From Alicyclobacillus sp. SO9 (GTDB lineage: Bacteria > Bacillota > Bacilli > Alicyclobacillales > Alicyclobacillaceae), in assembly GCF_016406125.1 (NCBI RefSeq), contig NZ_CP066339.1, positions 4,216,001 through 4,280,000 of the forward strand: DNA of 64,000 nucleotides, read 5' to 3'. A model generated the notes under the pieces. The model was not told where the DNA came from and searched no databases. It saw only the letters and a program-made list of their open reading frames with translations. How positions within the stretch are numbered: the stretch's first letter is position 1; the number at the start of each line of letters is the position of its first letter. The position numbers and the translations under genes were made by a program. This document shows, one piece after another, positions 16,990 through 20,635 of this stretch.

Positions 16990-17010
16990 TTTACGAAAAC
17001 GTTTTACTAA
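16990..17010. promoter_or_regulatory. LacI-type operator candidate upstream of the permease-gntK operon
   Basis: The palindrome AAAACGTTTT (16996-17005) has the central CG typical of LacI-family operators. On the minus strand GTAAAACG occurs twice here, 13 bases apart. It lies about 65 bases upstream of the permease start and is the natural target of the neighbouring LacI regulator. Confidence 0.5.
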
Positions 17011-17084
17011 CAAACCATATGCTACTAGATTTAGTTAAAGTCCGCAAGAGGAAAAATACTCACTTAACACCACATTTGCACCAC

Positions 17085-17323
17085 TCTGCCGACAACCTCA
17101 ACTGCGTCCCAGGCTCACAGCCTAGCAGCGTCCCGCCCGCCGCAGCGGTGGCCGGAAGACCCAACGAGATCGATCAGGACCGGCCGAAAAAGGTAAGCGG
17201 AAAACTGCCCCTTATACACTTAAAATGAATGAAATTCCTAATATTGGTATAAATCTAGCATCCCCATGATGAAAACACTCATGCAGTGTCCAGTCTGAGC
17301 CAATTTGTTCGTGATGCGGTTAG
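17085..17323. repeat. Degenerate leading part of the tandem array
   Basis: This stretch resembles the GC-rich tail of the array units that follow: a block rich in GCCGC/CGGCC, a shared GGAAAACTGCC segment near 17200, then an AT-rich stretch leading to the first clear palindrome at 17324. It has diverged strongly from the later copies. I see no gene here. Confidence 0.5.
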
Positions 17324-17647
17324 TTAGGGATCCCGTTGATCCCTACGCCCCACCAATTAATGTCCATTTATGACACTAATGCCTCGGCCAAGGTGGCATT
17401 AGGGATCCTTGCGATCTCTATCGCGCCGGCACTGCGGAAATAGGGATCTTTCGAGGCACTAACCAGCCTCACCGCCCTACCGCCAGCCACCGCAGGCAGC
17501 GAGGCCCCGGCGAGCAACGGGATCAAAACGGGAACACGAGCGGAAAACTGCCATTAATCAACTGATATTGAAGTTATACCCTTGTAATAGGATGAATTTG
17601 GAAGGCGTTGCGATGGGCAGAGTGGGTGCAGGCGTCTGCGCCGTTGG
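17324..17647. repeat. Array unit 1 (shortened, four palindromes)
   Basis: A 324-base copy of the tandem unit. It holds palindromes at 17324-17346 (arms TAGGGATC and GATCCCTA, perfect), 17357-17380, 17398-17420 and 17440-17463, then a GC-rich tail with GAACACGAGCGGAAAACTGCC. Compared with unit 2 it lacks about 104 bases carrying two palindromes. No open frame is conserved between units. Confidence 0.85.
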
Positions 17648-18075
17648 TTAGTGATCCCGTTGATCCTTAGCTCGATATCCGCCACATGATAGTGATCGAT
17701 TCGATCACTATCACCAGCAGGCCCTCCGAAATAGTGATCCCTTTGCTCCTTATCACCCGCGCTCCACTCTGCCTCTCCCCAGAATAGTGCCCTTTTATGA
17801 CACTAATGCTACGAGCAAGGTGGCATTAAGGATCATTGGGATCACAATGGCATCGTCCCTCCGACAATAGGGATCTTTCGAGGCACTAACCAGCCTCACC
17901 GGCTGGCCCGCCAGCCACCGCAGGCAGCGAGGCCCCGGCGAGCAACGGGATCAAAACGGGAACACGAGCGGAAAACTTCCATTAATCAACTGAAATTGAA
18001 GTTACACCCTAATCATGGAATGAATTTGGCAGTTGCTGCGACGGACACGGGGGTGGGGGGTGTCTGCGCCGTTGC
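17648..18075. repeat. Array unit 2 (complete, six palindromes)
   Basis: A 428-base unit with six imperfect palindromes centred at about 17659, 17700, 17742, 17796, 17837 and 17879, giving centre-to-centre steps of 41, 42, 54, 41 and 42 bases. Most share the pattern TAGNGATC, five bases, GATCNCTA; the second is perfect over ten-base arms (GATAGTGATC / GATCACTATC). A GC-rich tail almost identical to that of unit 1 follows. Confidence 0.9.
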
Positions 18076-18140
18076 TTAGTGATCCCGTTGATCCTTATCT
18101 CGATATCCGCCACATGATAGTGATCGATTCGATCACTGAT

Positions 18141-18150
18141 ATGAACGAAG
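18141..18150 (+). repeat. Left sub-terminal inverted repeat of the IS
   Basis: ATGAACGAAG, three bases from the left CT core (18136-18137). It pairs with the right copy at 19809-19818. Confidence 0.85.
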
Positions 18151-18594
18151 GTGTCAACTACAACTTAGACTCCATGACACTACACCGTTCGAGTACCTAA
18201 GTACCGCGTGGCTTGAATTGGAGTGGCTGCCGTGATAGGCTCATTTGCCGCGGCCATTAAGTACTTTATATAGGCTGCCTTGGCTGCAGTCATCACGGCT
18301 GCAGAGGCTCCAAGTCAAGCCACTTGAGCTGAAAGACTCGACTCGAAGGCAAAAACTTCTCGACGATGAGCATTCTGATATGCGTGGGTTGGTTACCACA
18401 TAGTATCTCTCCGTCCAAGGAGCTTCCGACTAACTATTGGCGTGCGTTCGGTGGAGAAAGACTCTCCACGTAGCAACAAGTGATCTGCGTGGGTTCTCCT
18501 CTACGGTTTTACACTTTTGCCTTCGAGTCCAATCTTCAAGCCTTTATATCACTTCAAACGGTTATCCCACAGGGCTATGACAACGGCAACTTAC
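18151..18594 (-). ncRNA. Putative seekRNA / bridge RNA region of the IS1111-type element
   Basis: This 444-base non-coding stretch lies just after the transposase stop, where IS1111-type elements encode their guide RNA. TGCGTGGGTT occurs twice (18381-18390, 18486-18495). Next to the first copy, CTGATATG at 18375-18382 repeats exactly the left junction of the element including the CT core (18136-18143). Next to the second, AGTGATC at 18479-18485 is the exact complement of the target half-site GATCACT. In the RNA sense each guide-like segment directly follows AACCCACGCA. This fits one donor-recognising and one target-recognising loop. Exact RNA ends are not visible; similarity to known guide RNAs was not tested. 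Confidence 0.6.
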
Positions 18595-19710
18595 TCAGTT
18601 ACTAGCTACTGAATTCATTTCTTCTTTAGAGATGGCCCACACGAACCCAGCTAACTCTCGGGCAAGTGCAACGATGGCTTTGGTACTAGGCTTACCTCGA
18701 GAGAGCAATCGAAGGTATTTACGATGTAAGCGGTCCTGGGCTTTCCAAGAGATACTTTGCACAGAAGGGGACTGCCCTTCCTGTCGCTTTCGAATGTCCC
18801 CCCTCAATGCAGGTCTATAGCGATAGCTCCAAGCCGCTTCGACGAGTACTCTTCTTAGGTGGGTATTTCCTGTCTTTGTAACTTTCCCTTGACGTCGCAC
18901 AGGGCCGCTCGATGATTCACTCGGTATTAATCCTGTATATCCCATGAATTGACGGGCAGTCGTAAAGCGACGGAAGTCTCCAACCTCTACAACTAAGGTC
19001 ACTGCCGTAAGCTCTTTTACACCACGGAGTGTTTGTAGTGCTTGAATGACTGGCTTGTGTGGGCTTTTCATAGCCAGTTCGTGAATTTCTTTTTCCAAGC
19101 GTTCAATTCGTTGTGCAATTACAATAATTGCATGTAGATATTCTTGATGTGTCTGTTGTAGAGCTCGGTTCGAAAACTTTAACTGCTGTAGCCAAGCCAT
19201 ATATTTGCTCTTCCACTTTGTCATCTTGGCAGGGGATGTTAAGTCATGACGAAGAAGAAACTTACTCATGCGCTGTCTTGCTCTTAGTAAGTCCTCTTTT
19301 GCATCTTCTCTACAGCGCACTAGATCTCGCAGTGCCTCATCGTCTTCGTTCGGGACGTATACCGCTGTGAGCTCCCCTGCTCGGTGTAGATGTGCCAGCT
19401 TGATTGCATCTCGACGGTCTGTCTTCACTCGATCTCCAGGTCGTGACGGAATGAGAGACGGGGCGATAACAGAACACTTTACACCCATTTGGGTAAGCAT
19501 TCTCTGGAGTCCATATCCTAAGGGACCCGCTTCATAACAGACATCCAAATCCTCAGGTTGACCCAACTTCCGAATGAGTTTTCGAATTGCTTCCGGTGTG
19601 TTAGGAATAACCCCCCATGACCTTGGTGCATCTCTGCCGGCGTCGGCAACAGCAATAGCAATCGTATCTTTGGACGTGTCTAAACCAACATATTTTGTGT
19701 TATCCTGCAT
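18595..19710 (-). CDS. IS110 family (IS1111-type) transposase / recombinase
   Basis: A complete 371-residue IS110-family recombinase. The N-terminal RuvC-like DEDD domain shows Asp11 (GLDTSKDT), Glu60 (CYEAGPLGYGL), Asp98 and Asp101 (KTDRRDAIKLA). A coiled-coil middle region is followed by the C-terminal Tnp_20 domain (LRGVKELTAVTLVVEVGDF and FMGYTGLIPSESSSGPVRRQG), where Ser266-268 contains the catalytic serine position. The ATG at 19710 is preceded by AAGGAG at eight bases; further upstream codons lie in the element's end and the host array. The protein should form tetramers that join donor and target at a shared CT guided by the element's RNA. No frameshift or truncation is seen, so the copy could be active. 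Confidence 0.93.
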   Translation of the reverse strand: MQDNTKYVGLDTSKDTIAIAVADAGRDAPRSWGVIPNTPEAIRKLIRKLGQPEDLDVCYEAGPLGYGLQRMLTQMGVKCSVIAPSLIPSRPGDRVKTDRRDAIKLAHLHRAGELTAVYVPNEDDEALRDLVRCREDAKEDLLRARQRMSKFLLRHDLTSPAKMTKWKSKYMAWLQQLKFSNRALQQTHQEYLHAIIVIAQRIERLEKEIHELAMKSPHKPVIQALQTLRGVKELTAVTLVVEVGDFRRFTTARQFMGYTGLIPSESSSGPVRRQGKVTKTGNTHLRRVLVEAAWSYRYRPALRGDIRKRQEGQSPSVQSISWKAQDRLHRKYLRLLSRGKPSTKAIVALARELAGFVWAISKEEMNSVASN

Positions 19711-19808
19711 AGTATCGGCTCCTTCACAATGTAGCTCTGATTGGTTTTCTGGTTCTCTTACAAATCCAGTATTGCCAATTAACCTACGAAATTGTGACAT
19801 GGAGCCGA

Positions 19809-19818
19809 CTTCGTTCAT
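19809..19818 (-). repeat. Right sub-terminal inverted repeat of the IS
   Basis: The complement of ATGAACGAAG, five bases from the right CT core (19824-19825). Confidence 0.85.
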
Positions 19819-20030
19819 GATAACTATCACCAGCAGGCCCTCCGAAATAGTGATCCCTTTGCTCCCTAACCCCAACCTTCCATTGTGCCTCCCCCACGTT
19901 AGTGTCCATTTATGACACTAATGCCTCGGCCAAGGTGACATTAGGGATCCTTGCGATCACTATCGCACCGGCACTGCGGAAATAGGGATCTTTCGAGGCA
20001 CTAACCAGCCTCACCGCTCTACCGCCTAGC

Positions 20031-20269
20031 AGCCTCAGTGTCAGACCCTAGAGCCAGAACCAAGGTTGTCCTGAATGACGGCCAGACATAGTAACATCCC
20101 CTAAACCATCGCGGCATATGGTGATTAGCAACGATTCAGGAGATGTAGGACATTGATATACTTTTGGCAAGCTGTGCTGCACAAACGCTGTCAGACAGAA
20201 GCCTTAAAAGTCTGAATCCAGGTGTCACCGCCAGGGGTTTGGCGTAGCGGCCCAGAAGGTAGGTCGCCG
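20031..20269. other. Gene-free stretch between the array and the DUF423 gene
   Basis: No gene or clear repeat is recognised. A short hairpin (CGCCA / TGGCG) lies near 20230, shortly after the DUF423 stop codon on the minus strand, and might help end that transcript. Confidence 0.4.
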
Positions 20270-20635
20270 TTACAGGACACTACCTCCGCCGATCAGCAGT
20301 GCAATCCACCCTCCAAGAAAGCACAGACCGCCAATGGGTGTAATCGCACCGAGTTTTCTGATTCCGGTTCCTGCCAGCGTATAAAGGCTGCCAGAGAATA
20401 GAACTATACCTGCGGTAAACAGCATTCCGGCCCAACTGAGAGCCGCCGAATGTCCCATCCTCATAAGAATTCCAACCACTACAAGAGCAAATGCGTGATA
20501 CATCTGGTATTGGACACCGGTCTGGTACACTGCCAAGCGGTCTTCCGGTATTTTGTCTCGGAGTGCGTGTGCCCCGAATGCACCTAGGGCCACAGCAAGA
20601 AAACCCGCTACACTCCCCAGCACGAAATATGTCAA
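20270..20635 (-). CDS. DUF423 family small membrane protein
   Basis: A 121-residue protein with four hydrophobic segments. GSVAGFLAVALGAFGAHALRD near the N-terminus, YQTGVQYQMYHAFALVVVG and the C-terminal GAITPIGGLCFLGGWIALL are typical of DUF423 (YwdK/YgdD) proteins, whose role is unknown. The TTG at 20635 is the likely start, with GGGAGG about eight bases upstream; the longer frame to 20671 begins in the ribosome binding site region. It stands alone between the array and the ppc terminator. Confidence 0.85.
   Translation of the reverse strand: MTYFVLGSVAGFLAVALGAFGAHALRDKIPEDRLAVYQTGVQYQMYHAFALVVVGILMRMGHSAALSWAGMLFTAGIVLFSGSLYTLAGTGIRKLGAITPIGGLCFLGGWIALLIGGGSVL

Follow-up and report, generated by a model that had tools for sequence, protein, structure and literature searches.

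A probable two-loop guide RNA in an IS1111-group insertion sequence of Alicyclobacillus, with loop bases that covary with targets and element ends

The element and its insertion site

The window, by which we mean the whole 64,000-nucleotide stretch of Alicyclobacillus sp. SO9 DNA analyzed here, contains an IS1111-group insertion sequence of 1688 bp on the minus strand (18138-19825), as defined by the ends, length, and flanks of its copies. The 5.29-Mb genome carries three copies with identical non-coding regions, one of which (copy C) has a one-base deletion in its transposase gene. This gene, at 18595-19710 on the minus strand, runs for 371 codons from an ATG at 19710 plus a stop and encodes a DEDD transposase/recombinase. 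Its product has the two domains that characterize the IS1111 group, PF01548 and PF02371 (DEDD RuvC-like and C-terminal Transposase_20), matches the NF033542 model "IS110 family RNA-guided transposase" at 275 bits with a cut-off of 140, and has the IS621 and ISCro4 transposases as sequence matches in the PDB.

The left end (19809-19825, minus strand) consists of a 7-bp extension, AGTTATC, followed by the sub-terminal inverted repeat ATGAACGAAG, and the right end (18138-18150, minus strand) of the inverted repeat CTTCGTTCAT followed by a 3-bp extension, ATC. Both arrangements are present in all three copies and follow the IS1111 rule of 7 bp on the left and 3 bp on the right. Additionally, the longer non-coding region lies 3′ of the transposase gene, as is usual for the group, with the RNA described below at 18329-18538 and the gene end at 18595. 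Near the right end is TTGACA (18152-18157, minus strand), the −35 element of a putative junction promoter; when the ends are joined it lies 17 nt from TATCAT of the left end (19817-19822), the −10 element, and relatives have a similar layout. Judged by sequence, this pair, assembled solely by end joining in the excised circle, is a plausible promoter for the gene and the RNA. The guide RNA is separated from the right end by ~180 bases (18151-18328, minus strand) that are strongly structured in the query, and most of the equivalent stretch is absent from shorter (~1500-bp) relatives.

The element interrupts a REP-like palindrome. Its right target half is AGTGATC (18131-18137, minus strand) and its left target half, read from the flank and by comparison with an uninterrupted palindrome at 17688-17712 in the window, is GGTGAT (19826-19831, minus strand). 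All three copies lie inside such a palindrome with AGTGATC as the right flank, a conserved insertion site without target duplication as is typical of IS1111 elements. With up to three mismatches allowed, 85 such palindromes occur across the genome, compared with none for a backward control. Around the element, REP-like repeats form an intergenic array (17316-18137 and 19831-20050) with a unit spacing of ~428 bases, within which we also observe a 230-nt and a 117-nt repeat pair.

A conserved two-loop fold 3′ of the transposase gene

From an alignment, a consensus fold, and a covariance model we delimited a guide (bridge/seek) RNA of 210 nt as modeled, at 18329-18538 on the minus strand. The alignment comprises 19 distinct relatives, the query included, over 218 columns on the transcribed strand, and RNAalifold yields 47 consensus pairs from these 19 RNAs, 19 of which show changes on both sides in one or more of the sequences. 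The fold is a long closing stem followed by two stem-loops, each with an internal loop. On the minus strand, the 5′ arm of the closing stem lies at 18514-18538 (columns 1-25) and its 3′ arm, with approximate limits, at 18331-18354 (columns 191-216); the tip hairpin of the target loop spans 18441-18478 and that of the donor loop 18383-18400. The query RNA alone folds with a z score of −4.5, none of 200 shuffles folding as well, and has one broken pair in its target stem.

The covariance model built from this alignment matched an RNA in 13 of 41 genomes of the family, in 19 of 398 genomes drawn from the phylum, and in all seven distant plasmid elements examined. These seven derive from eight elements among the 40 plasmid matches listed, of which one (L127) was the plasmid copy of genome G007 again. 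Six of the seven have an inverted-repeat pair recognizable by eye, with flanks that agree more or less well with the guides; L123 has no readable inverted-repeat pair, and the left side of L121 fits its guide poorly. A scan of genome contigs by protein alone gave two distant loci only, and relatives were therefore collected by whole-genome searches. An Rfam search of 17900-20100 returned no matches at E values up to 5, and no relatives were found in the viral collection. Genome G007 has 29 matches to the RNA model, with several guide types and some matches beside broken transposase genes, and thus offers a natural collection of re-targeted copies within one strain.

A reading of the region made from the sequence alone had pointed to a 10-base repeat downstream of the transposase gene. 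This repeat, TGCGTGGGTT, indeed occurs exactly twice in the window (18381-18390 and 18486-18495); on the RNA strand it reads AACCCACGCA and represents, at this locus, the conserved motif AANCCNCG. In transcribed order, the first copy (18486-18495, minus strand) forms a 5′ stem arm and leads into the right target guide, and the second (18381-18390, minus strand) supplies the 3′ arm of the tip hairpin in the donor loop and leads into the donor guide. Across 90 RNAs the motif occurs 149 times; 66 of the RNAs have it ahead of the right target guide, 81 ahead of the right-end donor guide, and 62 ahead of both. It serves as the closing-stem 5′ arm in the target loop and as the tip-hairpin 3′ arm in the donor loop. 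It is perhaps the equivalent stem of two rearranged modules and may be contacted alike by the recombinase.

Loop bases that follow flanks and element ends

For comparison of RNA with DNA we used 86 RNA-bearing loci, obtained from 110 RNA-model matches after dropping 19 opposite-strand echoes, a second match in L033, and the weak matches L113-L116. Element ends were read from the inverted repeats without use of the guides. A right flank was obtained for 67 of the 86 loci and a left flank for 51 of those 67; the counts retain rows with a mis-read right end, such as L112, which has since been corrected. In the aligned loop columns, the 5′ side of the target loop is the reverse complement of the right flank and the 3′ side is the left flank. 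The match to the top strand thus lies 5′ of the match to the bottom strand, which is the IS1111 order. Exact matches to the left flank across the core had been tried as a way of locating the left guide; they were scattered, and the aligned columns superseded them.

In the query, the right target guide is GATCACT (18479-18485, minus strand), which would pair with AGTGATC on the top strand of the target, and CAAT (18436-18439, minus strand) is its left counterpart. The sequence-only reading had placed AGTGATC, complementary to the occupied half-site, beside one copy of the 10-mer, and this is where we find it, as GATCACT on the RNA strand and complementary to the right half. It had also proposed TATCAC as a weaker match to what it called the right target half, which is the left one of the element. 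The word exists, one base away at 18547-18552 rather than 18546-18551; we reject it as the left target guide because it lies outside the RNA fold and model and because the blind scan described below puts that guide at 18436-18439. CAAT agrees with the left flank of copy B at three of four positions and with those of copies A and C at two of four (the final AT, as the left flank ends in GTGAT).

Both target guides change with their targets. Among 33 distinct right guides from the 67 rows, the match to the element's own target averages 6.27 of 8, compared with 3.43 of 8 when targets are swapped, and among 26 distinct left guides 2.73 of 4 compared with 1.38 of 4; in neither case did any of 20,000 permutations do as well. 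With one row per guide cluster, the right guide (n = 11) again gave 0 of 20,000 and the left guide (n = 8) 4 of 20,000. Over all rows, at least six of eight right-half positions match in 54 of 67 elements, compared with 370 of 4218 swapped pairs; the 13 rows at five or fewer include L062 and several broken or mis-ended copies. Sign tests on the transposase tree, among those listed for the target guides, stayed above 0.05 (LF-1: four the same, none opposite, two without difference; RF6: none opposite).

Several individual loci depart from this pattern. L062 (G007:C1:4206228-4209119) has the guides of L043-L045 and the flanks CCTTGTG/AGCGTTTGG, with a match of 4/8 and 1/4; it appears to be a genuine insertion whose site fits the guides badly, explained either by off-target insertion or by later rearrangement. 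L039 (G007:C1:1321773-1325867) has the same RNA as L023 and a right half that fits the guide less well (AGTAGATA vs AGAAGAAA), while its left side, CATG followed by AGT, is a full match, and it is likely an off-target insertion carried by the left guide. The 1950-bp elements L055, L058, and L059 of genome G244 contain AGGAGGCTCCC, the same word as the right half of their target, in the non-coding region far from the guide loop; the word may belong to a nested repeat that serves as a target in its own right.

We also scored every RNA column against every flank or end position on both strands, without assuming where guides lie. This gave 10,696 scores for 44 elements (effective number 20), of which seven exceed 0.35, the highest value reached in 100 permutations. 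Two of the seven link the 5′ side of the donor loop to LE7 (0.59, the strongest of all) and LE4 (0.45); four link the target loop to LF-1 (0.53), LF-2 (0.52), RF6 (0.47), and RF7 (0.37); and one links the 3′ side of the target loop to LE4 (0.46). All seven fall on the diagonals expected for a two-loop guide. Given the LE4 score with the 3′ side of the target loop, the left target guide is followed directly by bases that repeat the start of the element's left end. In the query these bases are AGTT (18432-18435, minus strand), the core plus handshake-like nucleotides, identical to left-end positions 1-4. Of 51 elements, 47 have an AGxx here that is identical to LE1-4; the exceptions are L034, L095, L102, and L106. 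This is the arrangement of a bridge-RNA handshake, here with two independent changes only, and is comparable to the handshake guides reported for IS621 (PMC11208158).

The donor loop has two segments related to the element ends. GATA (18404-18407, minus strand) is complementary to TATC of the left end, and CATATCAG (18375-18382, minus strand) is identical to the right-end/core junction and would pair with the bottom strand. The second segment had been noticed from the sequence alone as CTGATATG beside one copy of the 10-mer and assigned to the left junction of the element; the match holds, with the same word at 18375-18382 and at the junction 18136-18143, but the junction is the left one of the window and not of the element. 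Among 22 distinct pairs, the left donor guide matches its own left end at 4.64 of 7 positions, compared with 3.57 of 7 when swapped (0 of 20,000 permutations). Left ends of the types AGTTATC, AGTCATA, AGTTACG/AGTTAGG, and AGACATA, with near variants, accompany matching donor-loop bases, and a further type, AGACAAT, occurs in L109/L111. The right end is almost always ATC, with the RNA reading ATATCAG, and its donor guide is nearly invariant; a right end of AAC accompanies AACAG in the RNA in two separate groups (L040/L041 and L109/L111/L112). In L126, from a Sulfitobacter plasmid, the end is quite different, and the RNA segment CCACTTAGACC equals the left flank/left end junction over 11 nt and CATGAGAGC the right end/right flank junction over 9 nt.

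On the transposase tree, from which L046, L069, L088, and L102 (short frames) and L097 (a frame that looked wrong, with a very long branch) were left out, LE4 changes twice and LE7 three times, and independent changes at donor positions are thus few. The 35 rows are concordant in 34 cases for LE4 and the handshake column, 33 for LE4 and the donor column, and 34 for LE7 and the donor column, with all four bases at LE7 seen in step with the guide. Given these few independent changes, none of the sign tests listed for donor positions reached 0.05. The donor loop thus behaves as that of a bridge RNA, covarying with the left end and, in two groups, with the right end, through few independent events.

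A probable bispecific guide RNA and its relation to known systems

Taken together, this region of the IS1111-group element very probably specifies a bispecific two-loop guide RNA. What we observe is the fold, together with covariation at the two target guides, at the left donor guide, and at the handshake position; from PMC11187229, PMC11208160, and PMC11208158, as far as these accounts describe related elements, we infer transcription, protein binding, pairing, and catalysis by analogy. The transposase gene and the RNA would be transcribed in one direction from a promoter formed at the joined ends of the excised circle, and the folded RNA would be bound by the recombinase. In the target loop, GATCACT would pair with the right half on the top strand and CAAT-AG with the left half on the bottom strand; in the donor loop, acting on the joined ends, GATA would pair with TATC of the left end on the top strand and CATATCAG with the right-end/core junction on the bottom strand. 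The recombinase would hold sites of the GGTGAT/AGTGATC type through loop one and the joined ends through loop two, and strands would be exchanged at the shared AG(T) core. As AGTT copies the first bases of the left end, it could, once strands have been exchanged, base-pair with the incoming end, like the handshake guides of IS621.

The two-loop guide RNA had already been suggested from the sequence alone, on the ground that donor and target matches beside one repeated motif are unlikely by chance. That argument is weak: among 17,000 words drawn from the first 17 kb of the window, 887 7-mers (5.2%) and 233 8-mers (1.4%) are found again in 18151-18594 when both strands are counted, and a direct 10-mer repeat is present in 17 of 126 sampled 444-nt stretches, a figure inflated by nearby repeats. 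The suggestion itself gains its strength from the conserved fold and from covariation with relatives. The refuting outcome named with it, different targets beside an unchanged AGTGATC segment, was looked for among relatives, and the reading withstood this test: relatives with other targets carry altered, matching guides (6.27 vs 3.43, above). The thought that the matches are accidents of the host's REP-like repeats, AGTGATC being a frequent word without meaning in the non-coding region, draws on the same 5.2% recurrence, on seven occurrences of AGTGATC in 17000-20500, and on the 85 palindrome sites. We find it hardly credible, as relatives with unrelated targets match them at one and the same RNA position, inside a fold with compensatory changes, and guides that follow their targets, as seen here, contradict it. 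Equally improbable is a cis element, such as a terminator or attenuator of the transposase gene, that guides nothing. The structure does lie directly 3′ of the gene, folds strongly, and matched no Rfam family; however, its internal-loop bases follow external flanks and element ends, which a terminator would not track.

A target-only seekRNA has more in its favor, and we nevertheless regard it as unlikely. Here the RNA would pick the target, the protein would read the ends through the sub-terminal inverted repeats, and matches in the second loop would reflect inherited conservation of the scaffold. The right-end donor guide is nearly invariant and left-end changes on the tree are few, and PMC11187229 describes target matches in IS1111 seekRNAs and reports ISEc11 transposition supported by an 82-nt seekRNA, a form that moved a mini-IS, so that by this account the donor loop may be dispensable in some members. 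Against this, the strongest score of the scan links the left donor guide to LE7 (0.59 vs a null maximum of 0.35) and the two move in step through all four bases in 34 of 35 tree rows; additionally, a right end of AAC changes with the RNA in two groups, and L126 matches its unusual right end over 9 nt. We therefore prefer the bispecific guide RNA. A bolder form of it, in which the guide RNA of IS1111-group elements is bispecific with a handshake position and a single recombinase-binding module has given rise, as two rearranged copies, to the target loop and the donor loop, with AANCCNCG marking the equivalent stem in each, is a tentative proposal that we hold to be possible though somewhat doubtful; if true, both target and donor would be naturally reprogrammable in the IS1111 group.

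This RNA type, bridge or seekRNA, is already known from the 3′ seekRNAs with two target matches that PMC11187229 reports in IS1111 elements, REP-targeting ISPa11 included, and from PMC11208160, where covariance models predict bridge RNAs in 93.0% of ISfinder IS1111 elements and possible donor bases are placed in the multiloop of IS1111 RNAs, with six IS110/IS1111 elements inspected. What is added here is donor and handshake covariation in IS1111, of which we found no report in the text of open-access PubMed Central articles. The two 2024 accounts disagree on how IS1111 elements find their ends, by a target-only seekRNA or by a two-loop bridge RNA. With its many natural re-targetings and five or more left-end types, this family provides comparative evidence for a second loop that tracks the ends and for a handshake position, and these compact, naturally varied systems are suited to direct tests of donor reprogramming in IS1111 recombinases.

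The element resembles the IS1111 seekRNA elements of PMC11187229 (ISEc11, ISKpn4, ISPst6, and ISPa11) in the location of the RNA in the non-coding region 3′ of the transposase gene, in the sub-terminal inverted repeats and 7-bp left extension, and in a top-strand target match that lies 5′ of the bottom-strand match; ISPa11 likewise targets a REP. It differs from those seekRNAs, described there with target matches only, in that the second loop tracks the ends and a target-loop position tracks the left end. With IS110 bridge RNAs such as that of IS621, as presented in PMC11208160 and PMC11208158, it shares a target and a donor loop, two guides in each that share the core, and a handshake position. 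Unlike those RNAs, it lies 3′ rather than 5′ of the gene, and the order in its target loop is reversed, with the 5′ guide pairing with the top strand on the right.
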